Source: Nonomuraea angiospora
GTDB lineage: Bacteria > Actinomycetota > Actinomycetes > Streptosporangiales > Streptosporangiaceae
Assembly: GCF_014873145.1 (NCBI RefSeq)
Contig: NZ_JADBEK010000001.1
Span: forward strand, 12,400,001-12,464,000
Length of the DNA stretch: 64,000 bases
Direction of reading: 5' to 3'
The position numbers and the translations under genes are program-made. Below are positions 25,849 to 41,891 of the stretch, one piece after another. The first letter of the stretch is position 1. Every line of letters starts with the position of its first letter. The notes beneath the pieces were generated by a model. That model did not search any database and was not told the DNA's origin. It worked only from the letters and a program-made list of their open reading frames with translations.

Positions 25849-26012
25849 AGGTCTGGGCCTGCCGCTCGGGTCAGTGCCACCAGCCTCAAAGTTGCGCTGG
25901 CCACTGCGAGCGACGGCTGCGGTGCCCGATCCTCCGCCCAGAAGCAGTCCGGCGTACGTTCAGGGCGAGCGGATGCCCGTCGCCGCCGACGTCGCCGAGC
26001 GAGCTTGAGAGC

Positions 26013-29000
26013 TCAGGTGCAGCAGCCGCCGCCCCACGCCTCGCACCAGTCGATGCCGTGGGTGTCGCGCAGCTCCCAGTAGAACCTGGTTCTAGGCCTT
26101 CGTCGCGGGGCCAGCTCGTCCAGCGAGTAGGCGTCGTGGAGCCGCCCGTTGACCATCGTCATCGCCACGGTGGTGGAGTTGCCGATGTCGTCGAGAGGGT
26201 TCTCGCGCAGCACGATCAGGTCGGCGAGCTTGCCTGCTTCGAGCGAGCCGATCTGGTGATCCACCCCGAGGCTCTCGGCCACGTTGATGGTCGCGGTCCG
26301 CAGCACCCGATGCGCCGGCATCCCACCCGCGGCCAGCAGGGCCATCTCCCAGTGCATGGCCAGCCCCGGGATCTCGCCGTGCGAACCGGCGTTGATCCGC
26401 ACGCCCGCCTGGTCGAGCCGGTTGACCGAGCGGGAGACGGCCAGGACGCCGATGTCGTACAGCTCGTCGGCCACGTGGATCGTGGTCATGGCCCGCGCGT
26501 AGGGCGGCGCCTCGTACGGCGTGTTCAACGGGCTGTAGCCGCTCAGGCAGGCCTGGACATACGTGCGGACCCGGGGGTCCTTCCACACCTCGGTCCGCTG
26601 GTACATGTAGTTCTCGCCGAACAACTCGCCGAACGCGACCACCAGCGTGGGCGTGTTGGACACGCCGGACAGGGCCATGAGCCGCACCACGTCGTCGTAG
26701 AGGGTCGCGACGGGCAGGTTGTGCTCGAGGTTGGTGTGGCCGTCCAGGATCATGCTGATGTTGTTGTAGAAGTGCGTCTCGCCTTCTACGACGATGTTGA
26801 CGCCATGTTCCCGGGCGGCCTTGACCAGCATCTGCCGGTGCCGGCGCGCGGGCTGCTTGTAGCTCTTGACGCTCAGCGCGCCCAGGGCCTTCTTCCTGCC
26901 CAGCACGCCCGCGGCGTCCGCGTAGGTCTCGATCGGGCTGTAGAGGTGGAAGACGTTCTGCGGACGGCCGTGGATGGCCGAGCCGGTGCCGATCCAGCGG
27001 GGACCGACCGTCAGCCCGGCCTGCGTGGTCTCCGTGCTCTCGAAGCTCGGCAGCTCGGAGGGGAACGGGTCGAAGTTCGTGGTCACGCCGAAGGCCAGCG
27101 CGGCGAACCTGGCCGCCTGCTTCTGCGGGGTCAGGCCGTTCTCCGAGCCGCCGTCGATGTGCCCGTGGGCGTCGATGAGCCCCGGCATCACCGTCATGCC
27201 CGAGCAGTCGATGACGGTGGCGTCCTCCGGCACGGTGACCTGCCCGACCGCGACGATGCGGTTGCCCCGTACGACGACCGTGCCCTGGCGGTGGACCTCC
27301 TCGCCGCGCATCGTGATCACGGTGCCGCCGACCAGCGCCACGCACCCGTCGGGCACGTCGGCGTCCACGGTGAGCTTCACCGGCGAGGGCCGCTCGATCA
27401 GTGACCAGTCGCCGGTCTCCCGCACGTGCAGCTCCGGCCCGACCGCCCAGTGCACGCTGCGGCCGTCGGCTGCCCAGGCCAGCGCGTAGCCTCCGTGCTC
27501 GGTGAGCCGGTGGCAGGGCAGCTCGCGGGTTTCCGCCGTGACGAGCAGCTCGTGGCCGGTCTCGCGGTACGGGATGACGTGGTACTGGTCGGCGTTCCGA
27601 AACGCCAGCCACCCGCGGTCCGGGCTCAGCCGCAGCTCGTAGGTGTCGGGGTCGGCCGCGCGGGCGTGCACCCTGCGGTCGCCGCCGCGCAGGTCCACGC
27701 TGAAGAGCACCTCGACAGGCATGTCGCCGGAGGAGTCCACGGCGGTGGCGTAGACCCGGGAGCCGTCCGGGCCGAAGGCCGGGGCGTCGTCGGCCGGGCC
27801 CAGGTAGCGGGGTTCGCCGCCGCCGCTGCTCACCACGTACAGGCCGGGGCGGGCGGAGGAGCCGCCGAGCTGCACGTCGTGCTCCTGCAACCGGTACGCG
27901 ATCAGTGTCCCGTCGGGGCTGAAGGCGGGCTGGCGCAGCACCCCGGACGACGCGGTCACCTCGAGAGCCTGGTCCCAGCGGTCCCGCCGGCACACTCGCA
28001 GCGTGCTGCCGCGTTCGTCGTCCCACTCGACGTAGGCGAGCCGGCGGCCGTCGCGGCTGTAGGCGGGCTCGACGGCGTGCAGCGTGTGGTCGCCGACGGG
28101 GACGACGGCGTCCTTGCCCCGGGTGGTGTGCCAGAGCCGGCCCAGCGCGGTGAAGGCCACGTCCTGCCCGCCGGGCGCGACGGCCAGGTGCCGCACCGCG
28201 CGCGCCACCACCTTGTCCGGCGCCAGGTCGTGCCGGACGCGGACCGGCTCGGTGACCGTGTGGCGGCACTCGGCGGTGAACGGGATCGGCGCGTGCTCGC
28301 CGCTGTCCATGTCGATCCGCCGCAGGCCGCCACCCGCCCAGATGGCGACATGGCGGCTGTCGGGGAACCAGGAGAACCTCGGGTAGTAGTTGCCCTGGAG
28401 CTCCCAGACCGCCTGATTGTCGCGGTCGAGGCCGTCGAAGACCGGGCGCTGCCTGCCGTCGCCGGTCAGGTCCAGGCAGAACAGCACGGTCTTGGCCATG
28501 ACGCGGCGGATGAACGCGAGCCGCCTGCCGTCGGGGGAGAGGGCCGCCCGGATGGCGCCGCCGAAGCCGCCGACGACCGTGTCGGTGTGCCCGTCCTCCA
28601 GCCTGCGCCGCCGGATGGAGTAGGTGGCGTGGTTGGCGTCCACGTAGATCTTGGGGTTGACCAGGCGCTCGGTGTAGTAGAGCCAGGCGCCGTCCGGCGA
28701 GAGCGCGGGTTCCAGCACGTCGCGCCCGCTCGGCGGCACGTCCACGAGGAGCCGGCCCTGTCCGGGGCCCTCGAAGAGGCGGATCTGGGAGGAGAAGAGC
28801 TTGCGGTGCGCGCGGAAGATGGCCGGCGCGATCACGCTGCGCCCGTCCGGGCCCCAGATGGGGTCGGTCAGGAGCATGTCGGTGTCCCGCGTGAGCCGGC
28901 GCGGGTTCGAGCCGTCGATGCCGCAGACCCACAGGTTGTCGAACCCGTCGGCGTCGCTGAGGTAGAGGATCTCCGTCCCGTCCGGGCTGACGGACGGCAT

Positions 29001-29195
29001 CCGGTGCATCGCCGGGCCGCCCAGCAGCAGGGTGGCCGTGCCGCCGCCGGCGGGAACGGAGTAGAGGTCGCCGAGCAGGTCGAAGACGATCGTCGTTCCG
29101 TCGGGGGTGACGGAGACGCTCATCCAGGTGCCCTCGGAGGTGGTGAACGAGATCTCCCGCGAGGGCTGTCCGGTCGCGGCGATGTCCCAGGTCAT
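26013..29195 (-). CDS. TolB-like propeller - amidohydrolase fusion, cytoplasmic
   Basis: 1060 residues from ATG 29195, overlapping the upstream stop (ATGA). Roughly residues 20-640 are WD40/TolB-type blades with repeated SPDG (SVSPDGTEILYLSDADG, PALSPDGAWLYYTERL, AFSPDGTLIAYRL). Residues of about 690-1060 form an amidohydrolase: VMPGLIDAHGHIDGG carries the HxH metal site, with further His in VVEGETHFYNN, DGHTNLEHNLP and NAGSHGE, and the typical end GSLEAGKLADLIVLRENPLDD. Relatives act as prolidase-like or imidazolonepropionase-like hydrolases, often exported. This one has no signal peptide. It is the last gene of the importer operon under LacI-type operators, so it probably acts on an imported compound. 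Confidence 0.9.
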   Translation of the reverse strand: MTWDIAATGQPSREISFTTSEGTWMSVSVTPDGTTIVFDLLGDLYSVPAGGGTATLLLGGPAMHRMPSVSPDGTEILYLSDADGFDNLWVCGIDGSNPRRLTRDTDMLLTDPIWGPDGRSVIAPAIFRAHRKLFSSQIRLFEGPGQGRLLVDVPPSGRDVLEPALSPDGAWLYYTERLVNPKIYVDANHATYSIRRRRLEDGHTDTVVGGFGGAIRAALSPDGRRLAFIRRVMAKTVLFCLDLTGDGRQRPVFDGLDRDNQAVWELQGNYYPRFSWFPDSRHVAIWAGGGLRRIDMDSGEHAPIPFTAECRHTVTEPVRVRHDLAPDKVVARAVRHLAVAPGGQDVAFTALGRLWHTTRGKDAVVPVGDHTLHAVEPAYSRDGRRLAYVEWDDERGSTLRVCRRDRWDQALEVTASSGVLRQPAFSPDGTLIAYRLQEHDVQLGGSSARPGLYVVSSGGGEPRYLGPADDAPAFGPDGSRVYATAVDSSGDMPVEVLFSVDLRGGDRRVHARAADPDTYELRLSPDRGWLAFRNADQYHVIPYRETGHELLVTAETRELPCHRLTEHGGYALAWAADGRSVHWAVGPELHVRETGDWSLIERPSPVKLTVDADVPDGCVALVGGTVITMRGEEVHRQGTVVVRGNRIVAVGQVTVPEDATVIDCSGMTVMPGLIDAHGHIDGGSENGLTPQKQAARFAALAFGVTTNFDPFPSELPSFESTETTQAGLTVGPRWIGTGSAIHGRPQNVFHLYSPIETYADAAGVLGRKKALGALSVKSYKQPARRHRQMLVKAAREHGVNIVVEGETHFYNNISMILDGHTNLEHNLPVATLYDDVVRLMALSGVSNTPTLVVAFGELFGENYMYQRTEVWKDPRVRTYVQACLSGYSPLNTPYEAPPYARAMTTIHVADELYDIGVLAVSRSVNRLDQAGVRINAGSHGEIPGLAMHWEMALLAAGGMPAHRVLRTATINVAESLGVDHQIGSLEAGKLADLIVLRENPLDDIGNSTTVAMTMVNGRLHDAYSLDELAPRRRPRTRFYWELRDTHGIDWCEAWGGGCCT

Positions 29196-30268
29196 ACGGC
29201 GACCTCCGTCCAGCCGTCCGCGGTGACCGCGCATGGGCCGCCCTCCTGCAGGACCAGGGTGCGGCGATCGAGGTCGAAGCTGATGAGCATCTTCGTCTCC
29301 CACCGGTCGGTCTCGGGAGCGCCGGGCCGGGGGTGCGCGCAGACCGGCGCGCCGTCCTCCCAGTGGTGGATGAGCCCCTTCGCCCATTCGGTACGGCTCT
29401 GCGCGGTCATGACGGACCTGCGCTCGCGCAGCACCTCCATGCGGGGCAGGGTGTCGTCGCCGATGGCCGCCAGCCGGTCGCCCCTGGCGAGGCCCGGGTC
29501 GAGGAAGTGGTTGGTGTGCAGCAGGAATCCCTCCTCGGGCGGGAGCACCACGACCTCCTCGGGCGAGGCCTCGATGACGGCGCCGTCCGCGCTTCGCCCG
29601 TCCCAGGTGAGCACCGTGAACGAGGCCGAGGCCGTGAGCGGGGCCGAGCGGACGATGTCCACGGCGTCCTGTACGGATCGCGCGGTGTCGAGCACCTGCC
29701 TGGCGACCGCGTGGATGGGCACACCTTCCCGCGTGCCGTCGGAGGTGTGGCAGAGCAGCGTGAACAGCAGCCCGAGCCCGGAGCTGTTGATGCCGGCCTT
29801 GCCGAGCACGCCGTTCTCGGCGAACGTGGCGACCGTCAGGTCCGCGGGCGAGGTGTGCTTCAGCACGGTGAAGTTGCCGACCGAGGGGATCCAGTCCCAG
29901 GTCTGCAACGCCCTGGGCGGCTCGCCCGGGGGCAGCCAGGCCGCCGCCGTGCACTCCTTGAGCCCGGCGATGGAGCCCCTGACCAGGATCTCGGTCCGGC
30001 AGTTGAGCGCCGCGACCTCCCACAGCTCCAGGCCCGTGCCCTGGGCCACGCCCTCCAGCTCGGTGGCGAGCCCGGGGGACCAGGCGCGCAGGTGCTCGTA
30101 GCCCTGCTCGGCGATGCGGCGCACGGTGTGCCGGTCGAGCTTGGCCGCGTCGAAGAGCCAGGCGTAGTCCTTGGCCGTGCCGTGGATCTGGGCCCGCCAG
30201 CGTTCCCCGATGCCGCGGCCGCGAGTGAGCGGGTCGCGTTCGTCCGAGAAGTGGTAGTTGATGGACAT
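29192..30268 (-). CDS. C45-family autoproteolytic acyltransferase/hydrolase
   Basis: 358 residues. The fold resembles acyl-CoA:isopenicillin N acyltransferase. After LNCRTEIL comes GLKECTAAAW, where Cys106 should become the N-terminal nucleophile after self-cleavage. Then follow LQTWDWIP, GKAGINSSGLGLLFTLL, and a C-terminal WETKMLISFDLDRRTLVLQEGGP. Family members cleave or transfer amide-bound acyl groups (penicillins, peptides, N-acyl amino acids). It sits between the importer ATPase gene (7 bases away) and the amidohydrolase gene (overlap), so the product is likely used on the imported substrate. It has no signal peptide and is cytoplasmic. Confidence 0.88.
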   Translation of the reverse strand: MSINYHFSDERDPLTRGRGIGERWRAQIHGTAKDYAWLFDAAKLDRHTVRRIAEQGYEHLRAWSPGLATELEGVAQGTGLELWEVAALNCRTEILVRGSIAGLKECTAAAWLPPGEPPRALQTWDWIPSVGNFTVLKHTSPADLTVATFAENGVLGKAGINSSGLGLLFTLLCHTSDGTREGVPIHAVARQVLDTARSVQDAVDIVRSAPLTASASFTVLTWDGRSADGAVIEASPEEVVVLPPEEGFLLHTNHFLDPGLARGDRLAAIGDDTLPRMEVLRERRSVMTAQSRTEWAKGLIHHWEDGAPVCAHPRPGAPETDRWETKMLISFDLDRRTLVLQEGGPCAVTADGWTEVAV

Positions 30269-30275
30269 CGGCGCC

Positions 30276-31139
30276 TCAGAACCGCAGGTGGCGGCCGATG
30301 GGCACGACCATCGGGGTCTGCGAGACCGGGTCGGGGATCACCTTCGACTTCAGCCCGAAGACCGCCTCCACCAGCTCCTCGGTGACGATCGCGCCGGGCT
30401 CGCCCTGGGCCACGATCTCCCCCTTGCGCATGGCGATCAGGTGGTGGGCGTAGCGGCAGGCGAGGTTGAGATCGTGCAGTACGACGGCGATGGTCCGTCC
30501 CTCCTCGCGGTTGAGCTGTACCAGCAGGTCCAGCACGTCGACCTGGTGTTGTACGTCGAGATACGTCGTGGGTTCGTCGAGCATGAGGATGCCGGTCTCC
30601 TGGGCCAGGGCCATCGCGATCCAGACGCGCTGGCGTTGCCCGCCGGACAGCTCGTCCACGGACCGGCCCGCGATCTCGGCGGTGCCGGTGGCCTGCAGCG
30701 CCCAGGCGACGACCCGCTCGTCCTCGTCGGTCCACTGCCTGAACCACTTCTGGTGCGGGTAGCGGCCCCGGCACACCAGGTCGGCCACCGTGATCCCCTC
30801 GGGTGCGGTGGGCGTCTGCGGCAGGATGCCGATCTTGGTCGCGAGCTGCTTGGACGGCATCTCGTGGATCGCCTTGCCGTCGAGCGTCACGACGCCGCCG
30901 CGCGGCTTGAGCAGCCGGGCCAGCGCCCGCAACGTCGTGGACTTGCCGCAGGCGTTCGCGCCCACGAGGACGGTGATCTTGCCGGGTGGGATGTCGATGT
31001 CCAGGCCGCTGACGATGTCGGCACCGTCGTAGCCGAGCCTGAGCCGGCGGCCGCACAACTGCTGCTCCCGCTCCGGCGGTCCGGCGGGGGAGTCCAGGGT
31101 CACCGCGTGCGGCAGGTCGTCCGCTCGGAAGGATGGCAT
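30276..31139 (-). CDS. FecE/FepC-type siderophore ABC transporter ATP-binding protein
   Basis: 287 residues from ATG 31139. Walker A VGANACGKSTT, Q-loop LPQTPTAPEG with VADLVCRGRYPHQ, signature LSGGQRQRVWIAMALAQ, Walker B LMLDEPTTYLD and switch His LHDLNLA are intact. The RGRYPHQ and TYLD features are typical of ferric-siderophore ATPases. It powers the two FecCD-type permeases encoded upstream in the same operon. The N-terminal extension of about 30 residues before the domain is longer than usual. The frame back to 31280 was rejected because it overlaps the permease gene. Confidence 0.94.
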   Translation of the reverse strand: MPSFRADDLPHAVTLDSPAGPPEREQQLCGRRLRLGYDGADIVSGLDIDIPPGKITVLVGANACGKSTTLRALARLLKPRGGVVTLDGKAIHEMPSKQLATKIGILPQTPTAPEGITVADLVCRGRYPHQKWFRQWTDEDERVVAWALQATGTAEIAGRSVDELSGGQRQRVWIAMALAQETGILMLDEPTTYLDVQHQVDVLDLLVQLNREEGRTIAVVLHDLNLACRYAHHLIAMRKGEIVAQGEPGAIVTEELVEAVFGLKSKVIPDPVSQTPMVVPIGRHLRF

Positions 31140-31144
31140 CGCCG

Positions 31145-32185
31145 TCAATCTCCTTGTCCTGAGCTGTTCGTGGTGGCCAGCAGCCAGAGCAGGTACGGGG
31201 CGCCGGCGATGCCGGTGATGATTCCGACGGAGACCTCGGTGCTGGCCAGCGCCGTACGGCCGACCAGGTCGGCCACGCACACCAGGACGGACCCGGTCAG
31301 AGCGGCCAGCAGCAGCGCGGGCCCCGGTGACCTGGCCAGCCGCCGGGCCACCGGAGCGGAGACGAACGCCACGAAGGCCACCGGCCCGGCCGCGCCGATC
31401 CCGGCGCCGGCCAGCGCCACCCCCGCGACCAGCAGGAGCAGCCTGGCCCGCTGGACGGGCACGCCGACGGCTGTCGCGGAATCGTCGCCGAGCTCCAGCA
31501 CGTTGAGCTGCTTGCCGAGGGCCAGCGTGACCGGGATCAGCACCAGCAGCATCAGCACGACCGGTTCGATGTTCTCCCAGCCCCGCCCGTTGAGGCTGCC
31601 GCTCAGCCAGAGCGCGGCGGAGGCCGCGTCGTGCGTGTGGGCGCGGGTCCAGAAGAACTGCGTCAGCGCGGTGGCGACCGCCCCGACGCCGATGCCGATC
31701 AGGACCAGGCGGTAGCTCGACAGCCCGCGCCGGTAGGCGAAGCCGTAGATGAGGGCGGCGGTGAGCAGCGCGCCGATCGTCGCGGCGAGGGAGAGCGGCA
31801 GGCCGCTCAGCCCCAGCAGGGTGAGCCCCATCACCGCGGCCAGGCTGCCGCCCGCGGTGATGCCGAGGACGTCCGGGCTGGCCAGCGGGTTGCGCGCGAG
31901 CGACTGGAAGACCGCGCCGGACATGCCGAACGCGGCCCCGACCAGCACGGCGAGCAGCGCCCTCGGTAGGCGCAGCGACTGGATCACGAACACCTCGCCG
32001 CGCTCGCCCGACCCGAACGCCGCGGGCAGCACGCGCAGGAGCGAGATCGTGAAGTCGCCGACGGACAGGCTCAGGCAGAACGCCAGCAAGGCGGCCAGCG
32101 CCAGGCCGATGGTGACCGCGCGCTTGCGCCCGGCCACGCGGGCGCGCGTACGCGACACGTGGAGGAGGACGTCGTAGGTCGTCAT
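31145..32185 (-). CDS. FecCD-type siderophore ABC permease
   Basis: 346 residues from ATG 32185. Nine or ten membrane helices with the BtuC/FecCD signatures LRLPRALLAVLVGAAFGMSGAVFQSLARNPLASPDVLGITAGG, GIGAAGPVAFVAFVSAPVARRL, and the EV SVGIITGIAGAPYLLWLL end. It is the second of two adjacent permeases, as in FepD-FepG pairs, and should form the channel for a metal-chelate complex. Its start overlaps the stop of the first permease (ATGA). The ORF continues upstream as shadow to 32827. Confidence 0.94.
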   Translation of the reverse strand: MTTYDVLLHVSRTRARVAGRKRAVTIGLALAALLAFCLSLSVGDFTISLLRVLPAAFGSGERGEVFVIQSLRLPRALLAVLVGAAFGMSGAVFQSLARNPLASPDVLGITAGGSLAAVMGLTLLGLSGLPLSLAATIGALLTAALIYGFAYRRGLSSYRLVLIGIGVGAVATALTQFFWTRAHTHDAASAALWLSGSLNGRGWENIEPVVLMLLVLIPVTLALGKQLNVLELGDDSATAVGVPVQRARLLLLVAGVALAGAGIGAAGPVAFVAFVSAPVARRLARSPGPALLLAALTGSVLVCVADLVGRTALASTEVSVGIITGIAGAPYLLWLLATTNSSGQGD

Positions 32186-33243
32186 AGGGAGGCCAGATTC
32201 TTGCGGCGGACGAGGGCGATGAACACCGGCGCGCCGAGCAGCGCGGTCACGATGCCGACCTGCAGCTCGGCCGGCGCCGCCACGAGCCGGCCGACCACGT
32301 CGGCGGCCAGCAGCAGCACGGGGGCCAGCACCGCGCTGTAGGGCAGGATCCAGCGGTAGTCGGGGCCGACGATCGCGCGGGCGATGTGCGGCACGGTCAG
32401 GCCGATGAAGACGATCGGCCCGGCCGCGGCGGTGGCGGCGCCCGCCAGGATCATGACCGCGACGCCGCAGACGATCCGAGCGCGGGTCACGTTCTCGCCG
32501 AGAGAGCGGGCCACGTCGTCGCCGAGCGCGAGCGTGTTGAGCACCCGGCCGCTGACCAGCGCCAGGACGGCTCCCACGGCGACGAAGGGCCACACCTGTG
32601 CGGCGATGTCGGCGCCGCGGCCCGCCAGCGATCCGGTGGACCAGGCCCGGTAGGCGTCCATGGTCCTGACGTCCAGGAGCTGGACGAGCGTGGTGAAGGA
32701 GGCCAGCAGGGCCGTGACCGCCGTGCCCGCCAGCGCGAGCTTGACGGGCGTGGCGCCGTCCCTGCCGATGCTGGAGATCAGGTACACGACCACCACCGCG
32801 ACGCCGGCGCCGAAGAAGGCGAACCACACGTAGCCGAGCAGGGTCGTGACGCCGAAGAACTGCACGCCGGTCAGCACCGCGAGCGCGGCGCCCGCGTTGA
32901 CGCCGAGGATGCCGGGCTCGGCGAGCGGGTTGCGGGACACGCCCTGCATCACGGCCCCGGCCAGCCCGAGCGCCAGCCCGGTGAGCAGTCCGATGGCCGT
33001 GCGCGGGAGGCGCAGGGAGCGGATGACGGTCTGCGCCTCGTCCGCGGGGTCGAAGCGCAGGAGCGCGTCGAACACCGACGACGCCGGCAGATGCCGGGAA
33101 CCGAGCACCAGGCCGGCCAGGGCGACCGCGGCCAGCACCGCGATCGCGACGACCAGCCCGGCGGGGCGGCCCAGCCCGGTGACCAGGCCCTTGCGGGGCG
33201 CCGCCTGGCTCTGCCGGAAGGAGGTCCGTACGGTGGCGGCCAT
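32182..33243 (-). CDS. FecCD-type siderophore ABC permease
   Basis: 353 residues. The start ATG lies 5 bases after the binding-protein stop. The signature IRSLRLPRTAIGLLTGLALGLAGAVMQGVSRNPLAEPGILGVNAGA is followed by the coupling-loop sequence LNTLALGDDVARSLGENVTRARI and the C-terminal GIVTALLGAPVFIALVRRK. It forms a heterodimer with the permease at 31145 for uptake of a siderophore-like substrate. The DNA has no Fur or DtxR box that I could recognise; a LacI-type palindrome heads the operon instead. Confidence 0.94.
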   Translation of the reverse strand: MAATVRTSFRQSQAAPRKGLVTGLGRPAGLVVAIAVLAAVALAGLVLGSRHLPASSVFDALLRFDPADEAQTVIRSLRLPRTAIGLLTGLALGLAGAVMQGVSRNPLAEPGILGVNAGAALAVLTGVQFFGVTTLLGYVWFAFFGAGVAVVVVYLISSIGRDGATPVKLALAGTAVTALLASFTTLVQLLDVRTMDAYRAWSTGSLAGRGADIAAQVWPFVAVGAVLALVSGRVLNTLALGDDVARSLGENVTRARIVCGVAVMILAGAATAAAGPIVFIGLTVPHIARAIVGPDYRWILPYSAVLAPVLLLAADVVGRLVAAPAELQVGIVTALLGAPVFIALVRRKNLASL

Positions 33244-33248
33244 GCGGG

Positions 33249-34277
33249 CTACACGCTCCCCGAGCGCTTGAGCACGGCGGTGAGATCCTGGATCTGCTTG
33301 GTGTAGTCGGCGTAGTTGAGCGAGACCCGCACCCAGCTGCCGACCTGGCCCGCCTGCACGGCCTTCATGGCGTTCCAGGTCGGATACTTCTTCAGCGCCT
33401 CGTTGCCGAGGGTGTAGCCGCGGGCGTCCACCAGGACGACGCTCGGCTGGTACTTGGCGGCGTTCTCCCAGCTGACCGCCTCGTAGTAGGAGCTGACGAG
33501 CTTGCCCTTGGGAGTCATCACGTTGACCCCCCAGTCCTTAAGGTCGAGCAAGTCGGGGAACAGGTCGGGCACGGCGAAGTAGACCTGCTCCTGCGCCGGG
33601 GTCACGGCCAGCACGGTGAGGTTCGAGCGCTCCTTGGCGGTGCTCTTCAGCTCGTCGACCGCGCTCTGCCACGTGGTGCGGGCCTGCGCGATCGCGCCTG
33701 CGTCGACGTCCGCGCCCAGGGCCTTGGCCAGCTCGGAGAAGCGCTGGATGACGTGCGAGGACGGCTTGGTCGAGTCGACGGCCAGGATCGGGGCGATGGC
33801 CTTGGCGTCGTTCTGCATCTTCTCGGTCTGGAAGCCGTACACGCCGCCGGGGAACAGCACCCCGTCGCCCGTGTAGAAGGTCGAGACGATGACGTCCGGC
33901 CTGAGCGCCGCCAGCTTCTCCATCTTGACCTCGCCGAAGACCTCGCCGATCGACTCGACGCCGCTCAGGTCGAGCCCCTTGAGCATGGGATTGCCGGCGA
34001 AGGGCGCGCCGCCGAAGATGCCCACCGGTTTGATGCCGAGGTGCATCAGGGCGTTGGCGGCGTCCTCCTGGGCGACGACCCGGATGTCCTTCTTGTCGAG
34101 CCGAACCGTTTCGGCACGGTCGTCGGTGAAAGAGAACGAACCTGCCGCCGCGGATGCCTCCCTTGCCGGCTCGGGCTGTGACCCGCAACCGGTCACGACA
34201 AGCAACGCTGCGGTAACCAGAGCGATAAGACGAGGGCGAATGCTGAAACTGTCAGGCGATGTGGGGGGCGCGCTCAT
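33249..34277 (-). CDS. Iron-siderophore-type ABC substrate-binding lipoprotein
   Basis: 342 residues. After an unusually long N-region the lipobox LVVTGC puts the lipid on Cys31. The FepB/FhuD-like fold is visible: RVVAQEDAANALMHLGIKPVGIFG, EVKMEKLAALRPDVIVST, SSHVIQRFSELAKALGADVDA, and the C-terminal TKQIQDLTAVLKRSG. It captures the chelate outside the membrane and delivers it to the two permeases. It is the first gene of a six-gene operon whose control region carries an imperfect copy of the 18-bp palindrome at 34353-34370. The metal and ligand are unknown. Confidence 0.93.
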   Translation of the reverse strand: MSAPPTSPDSFSIRPRLIALVTAALLVVTGCGSQPEPAREASAAAGSFSFTDDRAETVRLDKKDIRVVAQEDAANALMHLGIKPVGIFGGAPFAGNPMLKGLDLSGVESIGEVFGEVKMEKLAALRPDVIVSTFYTGDGVLFPGGVYGFQTEKMQNDAKAIAPILAVDSTKPSSHVIQRFSELAKALGADVDAGAIAQARTTWQSAVDELKSTAKERSNLTVLAVTPAQEQVYFAVPDLFPDLLDLKDWGVNVMTPKGKLVSSYYEAVSWENAAKYQPSVVLVDARGYTLGNEALKKYPTWNAMKAVQAGQVGSWVRVSLNYADYTKQIQDLTAVLKRSGSV

Positions 34278-34352
34278 GTTGTTCCTCTCTCGGCGCCTGT
34301 CCGGTGCTCTCTCAGCCCGTTGACGTGCAGCGCTGGCGGCCGAAGCGTTCTA

Positions 34353-34370
34353 TGCCTGAACGTTTCGGCA
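34353..34370. promoter_or_regulatory. Putative LacI-family operator upstream of importer operon
   Basis: TGCCTGAACGTTTCGGCA differs at two adjacent positions from the perfect palindrome at 34483-34500. It lies 76 bases before the binding-protein start, in the divergent control region. The central ACGTTT core and TGCC/GGCA ends match LacI-family sites. I infer that the LacI protein encoded at 35734 binds here. Confidence 0.7.
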
Positions 34371-34482
34371 CATACAACCACCGGCCATTGGCAGTGTCAA
34401 CGGTCAATCAGGAAGCGAAGTCGCCGAGCTGATGACGGGCTGTCCGGAGACTGTTGCGTCTTTCGGGGGAGATGCCTATGGT

Positions 34483-34500
34483 TGCCGAAACGTTTCGGCA
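34483..34500. promoter_or_regulatory. Putative LacI-family operator upstream of serine hydrolase
   Basis: TGCCGAAACGTTTCGGCA is a perfect 18-base palindrome, 14 bases before the GTG start of the serine hydrolase gene. With the copy at 34353 it brackets the divergent promoter region, which would allow looping or joint repression. The GAAACGTTTC core is a standard LacI-family recognition shape. Confidence 0.8.
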
Positions 34501-34514
34501 TATGCGAGGCACGT

Positions 34515-35720
34515 GTGACGATCCACCTCCCCCCACGGACGGTCACGGACCGGCCCACGCTGGCCAACTGGCTGCGGGCGCCGTACAACCGCTGGTCGTT
34601 CCAGCACGTCAGAGAGATCACACCGACCGCGGCCATCGCGCGCGGCACGGGGCCCGTCATGGAGCTGCCGGAGGCGCCCCTGCCGCTCGGCGAGCGCGAG
34701 GTGACCTACACCTCGCATCCCGACGACGGCGGCGCGACCGGCTCGGAGCCGCTGGCCCGGCTGCTCGAGCGCACCTACACCGACGGTTTCCTGGTGCTGC
34801 ACCGGGGCCGGCGGGTCTTCGAGCACTACGACAACGGCATGACCCCGGCGACGGTGCACCTGTGCATGTCGATCTCGAAGTCCATCACCGCCACGGCGGT
34901 CGGGCGCGCGGTCGCGGACGGGACACTGAGCCCCGAGGACCTCGTGGGCGACCTCGTCCCCGAACTGGCCGGCACCGGCTTCGCGGACGCGACCGTGCGC
35001 CACCTGCTCGACATGCGCACGGGCACCGCGCCGATGACGGCCGGGCAGGCCAGGACCGACATGGAGGCGACGCTGTGGGCGCCCATGTCGCGCCCGGGCG
35101 TGAACACCGACCTGACCTCGTACTTCGCCGAATGGCAGAACGACCGGCCACACGGCGGCGACTTCCAGTACCGCTCGGCGCTGACCTGCGTGCTGGCCCG
35201 GGTGGCCGAGCACGTGACCGGCACCCGGCTGCCCGAGCTGGTCTCGCGCGAGGTCTGGCAGCGGATCGGCGCGGAGCGCGAGGCCGAGATCTGCGTGGAC
35301 GGCCACCGCAACGCTCTGGCGGACGTCGGGGTCTCGTGTACGTTGCGGGACCTGGCCCGCTTCGGGGAGGCCATGCGGCGCAACGGCTCCGTGGACGGCG
35401 TCGAGGTCGTCCCGCGCGCCTGGGTGGCGGACACGCTGGTCCCGGACGCTGACCAGCGGCCGGCGTTCGTCCGGCACGGCGCCCGCTACCTGCCCGGTCC
35501 CGGCGCCTACTACCGCAATCAGTGGTGGGTCGTCGAGTCCGGCCCGCAGGGCGCGATCTACATGGCGCTGGGCATCCACGGGCAACTGCTGCTGGTGCAC
35601 GAACCGGCCGAGGTGGTCGTCGCGAAGTTCTCGACCTGGCCGCAGGGCTGGTCCACGCTGCTCGCCGAGGACACCATCAGCGCCTGCGTGTCCCTGGCCG
35701 CGTCGCTGGCGGACGGATGA
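34515..35720 (+). CDS. Class C beta-lactamase / NylB-like serine hydrolase
   Basis: 401 residues from GTG 34515, chosen because the palindrome and a GAGGC ribosome site lie just upstream and the extension to 34320 runs through the operator. The nucleophile motif is SISK (Ser119, Lys122) in HLCMSISKSITATAVG; the second motif is Tyr219-Arg-Ser in HGGDFQYRSALT, replacing YxN. The C-terminal half contains YYRNQWWVV and GIHGQLLLVH. The family hydrolyses amides and esters, for example 6-aminohexanoate oligomers or small peptides. There is no signal peptide, so it acts in the cytoplasm. It is about 47% alike by eye to the paralogue at 36843 in the motif regions. Confidence 0.9.
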   Translation: MTIHLPPRTVTDRPTLANWLRAPYNRWSFQHVREITPTAAIARGTGPVMELPEAPLPLGEREVTYTSHPDDGGATGSEPLARLLERTYTDGFLVLHRGRRVFEHYDNGMTPATVHLCMSISKSITATAVGRAVADGTLSPEDLVGDLVPELAGTGFADATVRHLLDMRTGTAPMTAGQARTDMEATLWAPMSRPGVNTDLTSYFAEWQNDRPHGGDFQYRSALTCVLARVAEHVTGTRLPELVSREVWQRIGAEREAEICVDGHRNALADVGVSCTLRDLARFGEAMRRNGSVDGVEVVPRAWVADTLVPDADQRPAFVRHGARYLPGPGAYYRNQWWVVESGPQGAIYMALGIHGQLLLVHEPAEVVVAKFSTWPQGWSTLLAEDTISACVSLAASLADG

Positions 35721-35733
35721 GCGGGCGCGGCGC

Positions 35734-36750
35734 TCAGCGCCTGGTGGTCGATTCGCGTACCCGCAGCGCGGTCTCGATGACGACCGGGCCCGCGGCCTTC
35801 TCCCCGCTCACCCGCCTGGCCAGCAGGTCCACTGCCGCCCTGGCCATCTCCACGGGCCGCAGGTCCACGGCCGTGATGGCGGGCGAGGAGCCCTGCAGTA
35901 TCTGCCCGTCCATGCCTCCGGCCAGCAGGATGTCGCCGGGCACCGAACGTCCGGACTCGACGATCGCGTCGAGCGCGCCGAGCGGGGTGCCGTACGGGAT
36001 GGCGAAGATGGCGTCCGGCGGGTTCTTGAGGCGCAGCAGGCTGCGCACGCCCGCCGCCGCGGTCGCCCTGGGCCGCTCCACGTCGATCAGGCGCACCTGC
36101 GACTTGACGCCGTGCTCGGCGCACCAGCGCGCGTACGCCGCGGAGGTGTCCTCGAACCACGCCCACGGCGCGTCGGCCGTCACCAGCGCGATGCGCTCGG
36201 CGCCCTGGGCGGCGAGATGGTCGAGGACCTGCACGGTGCTGCCGGCGTTGTCGGTCTCCACCCACCAGCCGTCGGTGCGCTGGATGTCGCGGTCGATGGT
36301 CACCGCGGGCACGCCCGCGTTGTTGAGCACGGTGAGCGCCTGGTCGCCCTCGCGCGGATCGGCGATGATCACGCCGTCGACGTCGAGCCGGGCGAGATCC
36401 CTGACGTCCGTGGGCCGCGGGGCAACCAGGAGCTGCCGGTCGGAGTCGACGGTGGCCGCGGCGCAGGCGGCCACCAGTGCCATGTCGTACTCGGCGTTCA
36501 CCAGCCACTCGCCCACGCCCACGTGGCCCACCGGCAGGCACATGGCGAACACGCCCGTGCGGCCCGAGCGCAGGGCGCGGGCCGAGCGCCGGGGACGCCA
36601 CCCGACCTGCGAGACGGCGGTCAGCACCCGTTCGCGGGTCGCGGGATCCACCCGTCCCTTGCTGTTGACGACGTCGGAGACCGTCGTCATGGACACCCCC
36701 GCCTGGATCGCCACATCACGGATCGTGGGGCGGGCTCGCTTCGTGGCCAT
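35734..36750 (-). CDS. LacI-family transcriptional regulator
   Basis: 338 residues from ATG 36750. The N-terminal helix-turn-helix is TIRDVAIQAGVSMTTVSDVVN, with the hinge helix PRRSARALRSGRTG. A periplasmic-binding-protein-like effector domain follows (VFAMCLPVGHVGVGEWL, DGVIIADPREGD, RIALVTADAP, ILLAGGMDG). Its own start lies 60 bases from an operator copy at 36810-36827, so autoregulation is likely. It is flanked by two serine-hydrolase genes and stands near the six-gene importer operon. The DNA sites suggest it controls all three. The effector is presumably the transported compound or a breakdown product. The frame beyond 36750 was rejected. Confidence 0.94.
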   Translation of the reverse strand: MATKRARPTIRDVAIQAGVSMTTVSDVVNSKGRVDPATRERVLTAVSQVGWRPRRSARALRSGRTGVFAMCLPVGHVGVGEWLVNAEYDMALVAACAAATVDSDRQLLVAPRPTDVRDLARLDVDGVIIADPREGDQALTVLNNAGVPAVTIDRDIQRTDGWWVETDNAGSTVQVLDHLAAQGAERIALVTADAPWAWFEDTSAAYARWCAEHGVKSQVRLIDVERPRATAAAGVRSLLRLKNPPDAIFAIPYGTPLGALDAIVESGRSVPGDILLAGGMDGQILQGSSPAITAVDLRPVEMARAAVDLLARRVSGEKAAGPVVIETALRVRESTTRR

Positions 36751-36809
36751 GCAGGGACTCCGTCTGTGTCGGGGGCCGCGCAGCGGCGAGGACAGGCCAT
36801 TTGTAGCCG

Positions 36810-36827
36810 TGCCGAAAGGTTTCGTCA
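36810..36827. promoter_or_regulatory. Putative LacI-family operator, third copy
   Basis: TGCCGAAAGGTTTCGTCA matches 16 of 18 positions of the perfect site at 34483-34500. It lies between the divergent lacI-type gene (start 36750) and the second serine-hydrolase gene (start 36843). It ends directly before that gene's GGAGGAGAG ribosome site, so repressor bound here would block both. Confidence 0.7.
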
Positions 36828-36842
36828 AAGGAGGAGAGAGCG

Positions 36843-37973
36843 GTGCCTGCTGAAGCGGTGACGTTGGAGAACTGGATGCGACCGCCGTACAACGTCGTGG
36901 GGTATCAGCGCATCAGGGAGCTGATACCCACCGCGGTCATCTCCCGAGGTGAGGGGCCCGCGTTCGACCTCGAAGGGGGCGGGAGCAGCCTGCTTCTCAG
37001 GGGCTTGGCCGACCGGACCCACACCGACGCCCTGGTCGTCCTGCACCGCGGCCGGGTGATCCACGAGCAGTACGAGAACGGCATGGGGCCCGGCACGCGG
37101 CATCTGTGCATGTCGGTCTCCAAGTCCATCACTGCCACGGCCGTCGGCTCGGTGATCGCCTCGGGGGCGCTGTCGCCCGATGACGAGGTCTGCGCGATCG
37201 TGCCGGAGTTCCGCGGCACCGGGCTGGAGGGGGCCACCGTCCGCCATGTGCTGGACATGCGTACGGGGACACGCGAGGACATCACCACCCTGGAGCTCCA
37301 GCGCGCCTACTACTCCACCTGCCTATGGGCTCCTCCGGCGAGCTTCCCCGAGTCACCGGGGGAGGAGGACTCGCGCAGCCACCTGTGGCGGCTGACCCAG
37401 GTGCGCCCGCACGGCGGCGACTTCGAGTACCGCTCGACCCTGACGTGCGTGCTGGCGATCCTGGCCGAGCGCGCGACGGGACTCCGGCTCCCCGAACTGG
37501 TCTCCCAGCACCTCTGGCAGCGGCTCGGCGCCGAGCACGACGCCGAGATCACGGTCGACCGCAACGGCAACGCGCTGGCGGACATCGGGATCTGCTGCAC
37601 GGCACGCGACCTCGCCAGGCTCGGCGAGGTGCTGCGGCGGGGCGGCCGGCGCCCGGACGGGGCGCGGGTGGTGCCGGAGCCCTGGGTGGCCGACACCCTG
37701 AGCCCCGACGCCGGTCAGCCGGCGGCCTTCACCAGGCACGGCTCGGCGTACCTGGACCTGCCCGGCGCCTACTACCGCAACCAGTGGTGGGTCGCCGACA
37801 AGGGCGGGATCTACCTGGCGCTCGGCATCCACGGCCAGCTGCTCTTCGTGCACGAGAAGGCCGAGGTGGTCATCGCCAAGTTCTCCTCCTGGCCGGAGCC
37901 GTGGATCGAGGACCTGGCGCGGACGACTGTCGAGTTCTGCATGGACATATCAGCGGATATATGCGCAAACTAA
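36843..37973 (+). CDS. Class C beta-lactamase / NylB-like serine hydrolase, second copy
   Basis: 376 residues from GTG 36843 with a strong GGAGGAGAG site. The nucleophile motif is SVSK (Ser91, Lys94) in HLCMSVSKSITATAVG, and Tyr196-Arg-Ser follows in HGGDFEYRSTLT. It shares long stretches with the protein at 34515, including YYRNQWWV and the GIHGQLLxVH end, so the two are paralogues. An N-terminal ~35 residues (ENWMRPPYNVVGYQRIRELIP) matches the paralogue's NWLRAPYNRWSF start. It is cytoplasmic, since no signal peptide is seen. The pair probably differ in substrate size or in step. The gene is 40 bases upstream of the COG4280-like gene and probably co-transcribed with it. Confidence 0.9.
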   Translation: MPAEAVTLENWMRPPYNVVGYQRIRELIPTAVISRGEGPAFDLEGGGSSLLLRGLADRTHTDALVVLHRGRVIHEQYENGMGPGTRHLCMSVSKSITATAVGSVIASGALSPDDEVCAIVPEFRGTGLEGATVRHVLDMRTGTREDITTLELQRAYYSTCLWAPPASFPESPGEEDSRSHLWRLTQVRPHGGDFEYRSTLTCVLAILAERATGLRLPELVSQHLWQRLGAEHDAEITVDRNGNALADIGICCTARDLARLGEVLRRGGRRPDGARVVPEPWVADTLSPDAGQPAAFTRHGSAYLDLPGAYYRNQWWVADKGGIYLALGIHGQLLFVHEKAEVVIAKFSSWPEPWIEDLARTTVEFCMDISADICAN

Positions 37974-38013
37974 CGACTGTTACGTTTCTAACGCAACGGA
38001 AGGATGTGGGCCG

Positions 38014-38808
38014 ATGAACGCGGCCGCATGGGGTCTTGGCGCGGCGGTGCTGCTGGCCTCGATCGTGGAGATGGTCGAAGCGCTCACGATCGTCATGGCG
38101 ATGGGCATGACGCGGAGCTGGCGATCGACGCTCATGGGCGTGGCGGCGGCCCTCGTGGCCCTGACCGCCTTCACCGCCGCCGCCGGCTACGCCCTGGCGA
38201 CCTGGCTGCCGGAGGCGGCGCTGCAGCTCGCGATCGGCGGCCTGCTGCTGATCTTCGGCCTGCAGTGGCTGCGCAAGGCGATCCTGAGATCGTCGGGGCG
38301 CAAGGCCATGCACGACGAGGACCAGATCTACGCCGAGGAGGTGGCCGCCGCCAGGAACGCGGGCGAGGTCAGCGCCAAGGGGCTCGACTGGTTCTCGTTC
38401 ATGATCAGCTTCAAGGGCGTCTTCCTCGAAGGCGTCGAGGTCGTCTTCATCGTGATCACCTTCGGCCTGAGCGCCGGCAACCTGCCGGTGGCGATCGCGG
38501 CGGCCGTGGTCGGTGTGCTCCTCGTGCTCGTCGTGGGCATCGCCGTCAGGGGACCGCTGTCGAAGGTGCCGGAGAACACCCTCAAGTACGGCGTCGGGCT
38601 GCTGCTGGCCGGCTTCGGCACGTACTGGTCGGTCGAGGGGCTCGGCATCTTCACCGCGAGCCGCGAGAGCCTGGAGTGGCCGGGCGCCGACCTGGCGATC
38701 CTGGTGCTCATCGCCGCCTGGTACGGGCTGTCGCGCCTGATGGTCCGCGCGCTCAGACGGCCGTCGCCGGCTCAGGCCGGGGCTGTTTCCACCACGTCAG
38801 GGAGCTAG
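38014..38808 (+). CDS. COG4280-like membrane protein
   Basis: 264 residues with seven or so membrane helices in two halves. Acidic motifs lie inside helices: SIVEMVEALTIVMAMG near residues 16-31 and FLEGVEVVFIVITFG near residues 137-151. This two-fold E-rich pattern is the mark of the COG4280 family, which resembles cation transporters of the FTR1/GDT1 type. I infer metal or cation transport, but the family is not biochemically settled. The start follows GGAAGGAT. Its placement after the LacI operator and siderophore-type importer links metal handling with amide hydrolysis. Confidence 0.8.
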   Translation: MNAAAWGLGAAVLLASIVEMVEALTIVMAMGMTRSWRSTLMGVAAALVALTAFTAAAGYALATWLPEAALQLAIGGLLLIFGLQWLRKAILRSSGRKAMHDEDQIYAEEVAAARNAGEVSAKGLDWFSFMISFKGVFLEGVEVVFIVITFGLSAGNLPVAIAAAVVGVLLVLVVGIAVRGPLSKVPENTLKYGVGLLLAGFGTYWSVEGLGIFTASRESLEWPGADLAILVLIAAWYGLSRLMVRALRRPSPAQAGAVSTTSGS

Positions 38809-38810
38809 AC

Positions 38811-39023
38811 ATGGGGTTCATCCGAGGGTTCGGACAGTTCTGGTACGACCTGATCGTCGGCGACGACTGGAAGATCGCCGTCGCCGTCGTTGTCACGCTG
38901 GCGCTCGGCACGGTGGCGCTGCTGGGGTTCGCCGTGCCGACGGTGGTCCTCACGCCGGTGGTCGGTGTGGGCCTGATGGCGGCCTTCGCCATCGCGTTGC
39001 GGATCGACACACGCGACCGCTAG
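38811..39023 (+). CDS. Small two-span membrane protein
   Basis: 70 residues: MGFIRGFGQFWYDLIVGDDW followed by two hydrophobic segments (about 21-43 and 46-63) and a basic-acidic tail RIDTRDR. It starts 3 bases after the stop of the COG4280-like gene and has a GGGAG site, so translation is coupled. Similar small proteins are found beside COG4280 genes and may be a subunit. No other function can be read from it. Confidence 0.78.
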   Translation: MGFIRGFGQFWYDLIVGDDWKIAVAVVVTLALGTVALLGFAVPTVVLTPVVGVGLMAAFAIALRIDTRDR

Positions 39024-39458
39024 ATCTCTCATGTCCCGTCGCCCCGACAGCGATCGGACCGCCAGGCTCGCCACCGCCTGGCGGTCCGCCGCCACGTCTC
39101 GCCGGGCTGCCGCAACAGCATCCGCCGCGCCCGCTTCTACAAGTGGCAGCGCCACTACCGGGACGGGGGGCGCCACGCCGCGTGTCCGTGCGGCTGGAGT
39201 AACCCCGCTGAGTGCGAACGCCCCGTCCGCCTCCGGGGCGGCGCCCGATGCCGATCGACCGCGTGCCCAGCGAGCCGACCAGGCTGCGGGCCGCGGTCTG
39301 GCGCAAGCTGTATGGATCGCCCACCTCCCGCTATCCGTGGTTGTCTTCCCCGTCCTGCGCATCAACACCGGGAGGCCAGAGAAGCGATTGGGCAAATGTC
39401 CGGCTTATGTCCGGGTAGCGCCCTGGTCGGCCGATGGTGTGATCTTCACAATCGTGCC
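39024..39458. other. Intergenic region, no gene supported
   Basis: About 435 bases. It should hold the promoter for the large secreted protein at 39459. Near 39120-39165 one plus-strand frame reads IRRARFYKWQRHYRDGG, which resembles a transposase helix-turn-helix, but the frame has no homologous continuation. Nothing else is recognisable. Confidence 0.4.
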
Positions 39459-41867: not shown

Positions 41868-41891
41868 TCCGCCCATTCATTGACCACATCG

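Follow-up and report, generated by a model that had tools for sequence, protein, structure and literature searches.

The closest described counterparts of the locus reported here are systems that take up siderophores, hydrolyse them or cleave other amides. The locus comprises ten genes at positions 26013-39023 of a 64-kb window (the whole stretch of DNA that was analysed, positions 12,400,001 to 12,464,000 of contig NZ_JADBEK010000001.1) from Nonomuraea angiospora, whose genome is a single contig of 13.09 Mb. It combines a FecCD-type ATP-binding cassette (ABC) importer and a LacI-family regulator with four predicted amide hydrolases, namely a C45-type enzyme, a TolB-type propeller fused to an amidohydrolase (TolB-amidohydrolase), and two NylB-like serine hydrolases, NylB1 and NylB2.

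The DesE-type ferrioxamine uptake of Streptomyces coelicolor has a binding protein alike in fold and sequence, FecCD permeases and an ATPase; the present locus differs from it in having LacI operators, no IdeR-type box and hydrolase genes inside the operon. Fes-type esterases free iron by breaking the chelator. Fes/IroE-type enzymes likewise hydrolyse an imported siderophore but are iron-controlled esterases of catecholate lactones, whereas the locus encodes predicted amide hydrolases under LacI. The 6-aminohexanoate-dimer hydrolases NylB and NylB' share the SxxK motif, the tyrosine and the fold family with NylB1 and NylB2 and are the best PDB match of both, but NylB1 does not share their residues 170, 181 and 266. 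Deferrioxamine B can serve Mesorhizobium loti LU as its only source of carbon, probably by means of a serine-peptidase-like enzyme (PMC5805875). The activity proposed below would be the same, that is, use of a siderophore as sole carbon via serine-type amide hydrolysis, but M. loti belongs to another phylum, the paper names no gene, and our proposal is drawn from sequence. PMC12364333 cites the use of desferrioxamine B and ferrichrome A as carbon sources through hydrolysis of their amides inside the cell, and PMC11800396 describes a Microbulbifer strain that degrades amphibactins and not desferrioxamine. Finally, we found loci in which LacI proteins of the same group and C45 genes stand beside a Dpp importer with copper amine oxidase (for example L013, L043 and L048) or a major facilitator superfamily (MFS) transporter (for example L035). 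The operator type of the locus recurs in 12 of the 78 other C45 loci surveyed, which differ in importer class, give no TolB-amidohydrolase match (0/78) and include a NylB-like gene only once (L084; 1/78).

In this study, we report the gene content, importer class, operators, iron-box absence, LacI grouping and co-inheritance of the locus, all computed directly, and propose from them a substrate, its cleavage, its use as a nutrient and the direction of an importer swap. The initial annotation, made from the letters of this DNA, knew of no described system with this gene set, and none was found in the full-text literature searched, which consisted of open-licence PMC papers and is not proof of absence.

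Predicted LacI control of a siderophore-type importer

A 16-base palindrome centred on AACGTT is present at the promoters of the locus. The perfect copy, GCCGAAACGTTTCGGC, ends 15 bases upstream of the NylB1 start, and copies with two mismatches each stand at the importer-operon promoter and between LacI and NylB2. Four sites with at most three mismatches were counted against 0.35 expected, and none of 100 shuffles reached four; in the whole genome, the only sites with at most one mismatch are the perfect one and an intragenic one, both in the locus. In the two closest relatives of the locus, from Nonomuraea genomes G043 and G044, sites with 1-2 mismatches occupy all three corresponding promoter places, and G043 retains both sites of the importer/NylB1 intergenic stretch even though it has no NylB1. 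The claim that LacI-type palindromes mark the promoters thus held for these three; the fourth site, at 34100, is intragenic and was not found in G043 or G044.

The earlier statement that no iron-responsive box is present was borne out. No DtxR/IdeR box was found on either strand of the locus within 7 of 19 mismatches, nor within six in the G043 and G044 stretches, and there was no Fur box within three mismatches in the 64-kb window. The window's one DtxR/IdeR-type site within six mismatches is at 18191, outside the locus. As a control, IdeR-like boxes with 2-4 mismatches precede the binding-protein gene in all five related FecCD stretches from other Nonomuraea (L242-L246, which come from five of the seven genomes that ranked next for the binding protein in the genus search). 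Among six siderophore-type stretches of the same genome, four contain boxes with at most five mismatches (L271, L269, L002 and L004; not L270 and L005). Resampled sequence gave 0 to 0.02 IdeR-like sites per stretch, with a maximum of one, in the six stretches to which this control was applied. From the LacI operators, and from the missing IdeR/DtxR box where the controls have one, the importer is predicted to stand under LacI control instead of iron control.

A LacI group associated with C45 hydrolases

We surveyed the loci of the best 80 of 154 confirmed C45 relatives, of which two represent this locus and 78 are others. In 39 of the 80 loci, 37 of them among the 78 others, a match to the LacI family is found no more than 10 kb from the C45 gene, and in 19 the distance is at most 1.5 kb; these counts include second LacI genes at some loci. 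A tree was built from 68 LacI proteins, comprising up to two matches per C45 locus and 28 paralogue loci of G043 and the N. angiospora genome (G000); matches covering fewer than 230 residues were left out. One of these, L295, is a partial match that lies about 9.5 kb away from the other C45 gene of the genome. The LacI proteins of the locus and its relatives, three in all, fall into a 39-tip split (ultrafast bootstrap 99, FastTree 0.964) together with 35 of 38 LacI proteins of other C45 loci and one of 27 paralogues, and this lone paralogue (G043:C22:22437) itself lies about 9 kb from a C45 gene. The regulator therefore groups with LacI proteins near C45 hydrolases in other genera, a relationship new to this analysis, and the locus has a C45-group LacI near a C45 gene and an importer.

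The operator of the LacI/C45 relatives, GCCGGAACGTTCCGGC, is one symmetric base off the operator of the locus. With at most one mismatch, it was found at 14 sites in 12 of the 78 loci, as compared with a mean of 0.2 and a maximum of 4 for 40 scrambled palindromes. These loci contain C45 and a Dpp-type importer, with copper amine oxidase in six, and by position the sites lie within about 280 bases of the starts of copper amine oxidase, DppA-type or LacI matches. No operator was found in two other Nonomuraea C45 stretches, L212 and L213; the LacI gene of L212 is just outside the stretch. We found no description of this regulon of C45, Dpp importer and, in some loci, copper amine oxidase in the open-licence literature searched.

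Of 47 non-proteobacterial C45 loci, 15 have a DppA-type binding protein, 12 an MHS-type MFS gene and 11 a gene for copper amine oxidase or class-III aminotransferase (copper amine oxidase in 6); of 33 proteobacterial loci, 30 have an MHS-type MFS gene. These counts come from tblastn with one or two representatives each at a threshold of at least 100 bits, which distant members may escape; the loci were sorted by record title, and the 47 include this locus. Hence C45 hydrolases of this kind are often accompanied by an importer and plausibly yield an amine. FecCD permeases lie within 5 kb of C45 in two of the 78 loci (L015 and L031) and within 10 kb in three (plus L078), and the rest of the gene set is absent from these. 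An Agromyces locus (L084) independently groups a NylB-like gene (36% identity), LacI, C45 and two ABC-ATPase genes. Since its LacI belongs to the C45-linked group and its operator is nearly identical, the locus appears to belong to a wider LacI/C45 amide-utilisation regulon as a member whose importer has been swapped.

Importer and hydrolases

The FecCD-type importer set is complete, with two PF01032 permeases, an ATPase and a PF01497 lipoprotein in one operon. Iron-siderophore models score best for the ATPase and permeases (NCBIfam), the top model of the ATPase being enterobactin ATPase at 342.9 bits, under the cut-off of 497. DesE is the closest solved relative of the binding protein both by sequence (28% identity) and by fold, as judged from a predicted model and the best 1000 Foldseek matches, and the protein has a hydrophobic N-terminus by hydropathy. 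From its class and from DesE as closest solved relative, the importer would carry a ferric siderophore. Among the siderophore genes of the host, NIS (nonribosomal-peptide-synthetase-independent siderophore) synthetases are present.

The active-site cysteine proposed for the C45 enzyme, Cys106, proved correct and is conserved across at least 97% of the 81 sequences compared. In the TolB-amidohydrolase, residues of metal-ligand type (H677 and H679 of the HxH motif, K777, H825, H939 and H948) are invariant in 7 sequences. NylB1 and NylB2 have the SISK and SVSK motifs read in them by the initial annotation, and their serine, lysine and tyrosine (S119/K122/Y219 and S91/K94/Y196, respectively) are conserved across at least 95% of the 27 sequences compared. 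These two PF00144 enzymes share 60% identity along most of their length and are paralogues, so what had been described as four amide-cleaving families are four enzymes of three families. None of the four has a hydrophobic N-terminus (hydropathy check, not SignalP), in agreement with the claim that they lack signal peptides. Ratios of nonsynonymous to synonymous substitution (dN/dS) are 0.13-0.40 for the locus genes compared with G044 (ten genes) and G043 (nine, without NylB1), and the enzymes look intact on these sequence grounds.

For both NylB enzymes, the closest solved structures are those of NylB/NylB'. Residues Tyr170, Asp181 and Asn266 of NylB, which we take to be specificity residues, correspond in NylB1 to a gap, Met and Asp in an alignment that covered this enzyme. 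As they are not kept, NylB1 is by its sequence NylB-like and predicted to be no nylonase, and native nylon degradation was rejected as its role. A G181D/H266N variant is named in PMC13269358. NylB2 also matches PDB 8rlj (4.1e-30), listed among the references of PMC13269358 as PIB-1, a carbapenem-hydrolysing enzyme, whereas classical class C beta-lactamases match it at 0.0067 or weaker.

Five plasmid-borne relatives of NylB, four on rhizobial plasmids and one on an Arthrobacter plasmid, were inspected in their neighbourhoods. On three Shinella plasmids (L258, L261 and L262), NylB-like genes share operons with ABC importers and with genes for an amidohydrolase, an amidase or a carbon-nitrogen hydrolase, which gives a hint at native substrates of the NylB enzyme family; the relative in L259 accompanies a Pot-type importer, and that of the Arthrobacter plasmid (L260) urate genes. 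A TolB-amidohydrolase relative on a Novosphingobium EMRT-2 plasmid (L238:9704-16175) is flanked by a TonB-dependent receptor gene on one side and a PepSY_TM gene on the other (Pfam). This arrangement resembles a chelate-utilisation operon, and it is the only one of eight TolB-relative neighbourhoods with both of these genes.

Gene content of the locus

Translations and family scans confirmed all ten genes (Table 1), including the six-gene importer operon that had been claimed. In the operon, on the minus strand, the binding lipoprotein is followed by FecCD A, FecCD B, the ATPase, the C45 hydrolase and the TolB-amidohydrolase, with intergenic gaps of 5, -4, 5, 7 and -4 bases (from open reading frame (ORF) ends and chosen starts). 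Its neighbours are NylB1, NylB2, the COG4280-like gene and a small membrane ORF on the plus strand, and LacI on the minus strand. An ORF at 38004-39023, earlier taken for a gene, is an alternative frame that gives way to two likely genes, the COG4280-like one and the 70-codon ORF after it.

Table 1. Genes and putative regulatory sites of the N. angiospora locus (window positions), with the loci of other genera that contain the related operator
Feature	Position	Strand	Evidence
TolB-type beta-propeller fused to amidohydrolase, 1060 aa, last operon gene	26013..29195	-	Pfam PD40 5.9e-23, Amidohydro_1 6.1e-18
C45-type N-terminal-nucleophile amide hydrolase (predicted), Cys106	29192..30268	-	NCBIfam NF040521 216.8 bits (cut-off 85), Pfam AAT 5.9e-19
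ABC ATPase, siderophore type	30276..31139	-	Pfam ABC_tran 5.5e-30
FecCD permease B	31145..32185	-	PF01032 1.9e-79
FecCD permease A	32182..33243	-	PF01032 3e-90
Substrate-binding lipoprotein, DesE-like, first operon gene	33249..34277	-	
Operator-like site within binding-protein gene, 1 mismatch	34100..34115	.	palindrome search
Putative LacI operator, importer-operon promoter, 2 mismatches	34354..34369	.	palindrome search, matching sites in both relatives
Putative LacI operator, NylB1 promoter, perfect 16-base palindrome	34484..34499	.	palindrome and whole-genome search, kept in relatives
NylB1, class-C beta-lactamase-fold serine hydrolase, SISK	34515..35720	+	PF00144 1.7e-29, PDB NylB family 2e-51
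LacI-family regulator, C45-linked group	35734..36750	-	PF00356 4.3e-15, PF13377 5.4e-27, two trees
Putative LacI operator between LacI and NylB2, 2 mismatches	36811..36826	.	palindrome search, kept in relatives
NylB2, class-C beta-lactamase-fold serine hydrolase, SVSK	36843..37973	+	PF00144 5.5e-30, PDB NylB family 3.5e-60
COG4280-like polytopic membrane protein (COG name from the initial annotation)	38014..38808	+	GDT1 24.6 bits (cut-off 27), OFeT_1 18.3 bits (cut-off 26.9)
Small membrane ORF, 70 codons, after COG4280	38811..39023	+	within stretch matching relatives
GCCGGAACGTTCCGGC loci, other genera	L011, L012, L013, L014, L015, L018, L043, L048, L064, L065, L077, L087		

The COG4280-like gene follows NylB2 in all four genomes with close NylB2 orthologues. 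A ChrB_N-type gene is found near it in both relatives (L009:1504-2163 in G043 and L010:403-1014 in G044), and in the window only a short stretch at 39250-39310 matching this gene was seen. Beyond the locus, an ORF at 39312-41825 reads like a trypsin-like protein with repeats and adjoins one of 1367 codons at 41880-45983 with long alanine-rich stretches.

Distribution and co-inheritance

The two closest relatives of the locus in named records are Nonomuraea sp. NEAU-A123 and MG754425. In a search of 54 Nonomuraea genomes, N. angiospora included, C45 orthologues at 80% identity or more occur in three, and the same three contain orthologues of the binding protein (at least 82%) and of the TolB-amidohydrolase (E 1e-40). 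NylB2 orthologues at 77% or more are present in four, the fourth being G019. Co-occurrence of the ten genes, put forward initially as a check, was thus observed for the importer, C45 and TolB-amidohydrolase and not throughout for the NylB pair, as NylB1 is missing in G043 and NylB2 stands without importer and LacI in G019. The stretch common to the relatives runs from 26009-26011 to about 39015, plus a short match to 39310; these some 13 kb are kept in G044 and, without NylB1, in G043, and window genes outside the stretch have no match in the fetched flanks of the relatives (those of G044 being short). Compared with G043 (about 95% nucleotide identity), G019 (stretch L208) has both flanks and 52 bases replacing 9.8 kb, from LacI to the TolB-amidohydrolase; it keeps NylB2, COG4280 and, on the other side, an oxidase gene.

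Across 394 sampled genomes of the class, of which the best two TolB-amidohydrolase, five NylB and five binding-protein candidates per genome were scored, there was no other TolB-amidohydrolase at E 1e-100, and the best relatives outside the genus reached 47% identity for NylB and 34-37% for the binding protein. Sixteen stretches around NylB relatives contained no permease, binding-protein, C45, LacI or TolB gene, with generic ABC-ATPase matches in three. The whole gene set was found in none of the 78 other C45 loci and none of these 16 stretches. This orthologue distribution and the absence elsewhere point to a rare accessory locus that was probably inherited as a block.

The oxidase gene is L-amino-acid-oxidase-like, lies after the operon in G043 (L009:14338-15870) and is kept in G019. 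It has no close copy in G000 (a 31% relative is found elsewhere in the genome) or in G044 (no match at E 1e-30). With L-amino acid oxidases as its nearest relatives and without close copies in these two genomes, it was not counted as core evidence.

Possible function and evolution of the locus

We tentatively favour a LacI-repressed regulon for the use of an amide-built metal chelator, to which we would give somewhat less than an even chance. Given that the binding protein is DesE-like and that the locus lacks an iron box, an amide-built chelator serving as nutrient would be the simplest substrate. In deferrioxamines, diamines are linked through amides, which fits the amine logic of the LacI/C45 relatives. 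The DesE-like lipoprotein and the FecCD importer would take up a hydroxamate-type, ferrioxamine-like complex. In the cytoplasm, C45, the TolB-amidohydrolase and the two NylB-like serine hydrolases may cut its amide bonds, yielding amines and acids for metabolism and freeing the metal, and the substrate or a cleavage product would release LacI from the operators at the three promoters. In evolution, a siderophore-type importer lacking an iron box may have taken the place of the usual peptide-type ABC or MFS importer of a LacI/C45 module, and the regulon may have gained two further kinds of hydrolase. Less probable is the full version in which these genes form a siderophore-eating set, with the importer moved out of iron control to that of an amide-catabolism LacI and the four hydrolases dismantling a ferrioxamine-type chelator for carbon and nitrogen. 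The interpretation given initially, import of an amide-linked chelator or peptide conjugate followed by cleavage, is partly supported.

Several observations weigh against a chelator as the nutrient. NCBIfam matches of the binding protein are weak and mixed, with haem IsdE first (1.3e-4) and then FecB and FhuD, relatives of its fold bind varied chelates and haem, and its identity to DesE is that of 28% given above. Among the genes scanned with Pfam and NCBIfam, none was recognised as a ferric-siderophore reductase, and 26013-39023 contains no amine oxidase or aminotransferase gene, unlike some LacI/C45 relatives. None of the five plasmid-borne NylB relatives stands beside a siderophore importer, those of the four rhizobial plasmids sitting with polyamine- or peptide-type importers, and the eight TolB-amidohydrolase neighbourhoods are mixed and have no common theme. 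NylB1 is missing in G043 and NylB2 persists in G019 without importer and LacI; therefore neither is strictly tied to the importer.

The main rival is a metal-free substrate, in which case the FecCD importer would have been recruited for a nutrient resembling a peptide or an acylated amine, to be degraded by the four hydrolases. This accords with the C45/LacI relatives, which have MFS transporters or Dpp-type importers, the latter partly alongside amine oxidase or aminotransferase, with the Pot/Dpp-type importers and amidases beside NylB relatives, with the oxidase-like gene after the block in G043 and with the lack of an iron box. We nevertheless regard it as unlikely, as the ATPase and permeases fit iron-siderophore models best, the binding protein fits DesE in sequence and fold, and the FecCD/Peripla_BP_2 class handles chelates, haem and corrinoids.

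Alternatively, the hydrolases might break a foreign siderophore to acquire its iron, with nutrient use secondary. The importer class would suit this, and amide cleavage of a hydroxamate backbone would lower its iron affinity by general chemistry, but the locus has LacI control and no IdeR/Fur box, whereas related importers have IdeR-like boxes, and three hydrolase kinds are more than iron release needs; the likelihood of this explanation is small. A chance neighbourhood, in which the importer operon and the NylB/COG4280 genes serve separate functions at one place, would explain NylB2 and COG4280 without an importer in G019 and the ChrB neighbour of COG4280 in G043 and G044. Its likelihood is slight, given operators at all three promoters in three genomes and a stretch of some 13 kb kept in G044 and, without NylB1, in G043, whereas window genes outside it have no match in the fetched flanks. 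Detoxification of an imported siderophore-antibiotic conjugate or amide antibiotic, for which the two class-C beta-lactamase-fold enzymes, the match of NylB2 to PIB-1 and the C45 enzyme could speak (the solved member of the C45 family being a penicillin acyltransferase), is very improbable, since taking in a toxin to destroy it is costly and NylB2 is far closer to NylB than to 8rlj or to classical class C enzymes.

For a LacI-repressed regulon for chelator use, which remains our preferred reading, the locus offers a testable gene set in a field where siderophore-consuming bacteria such as M. loti LU have already been reported, and it would present a siderophore-type importer under catabolic instead of iron control. 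It supplies natural members of the NylB and C45 families of amide hydrolases for which a native substrate can be proposed. Moreover, it exposes a wider LacI/C45 regulon of soil bacteria, with a defined operator and interchangeable importers.

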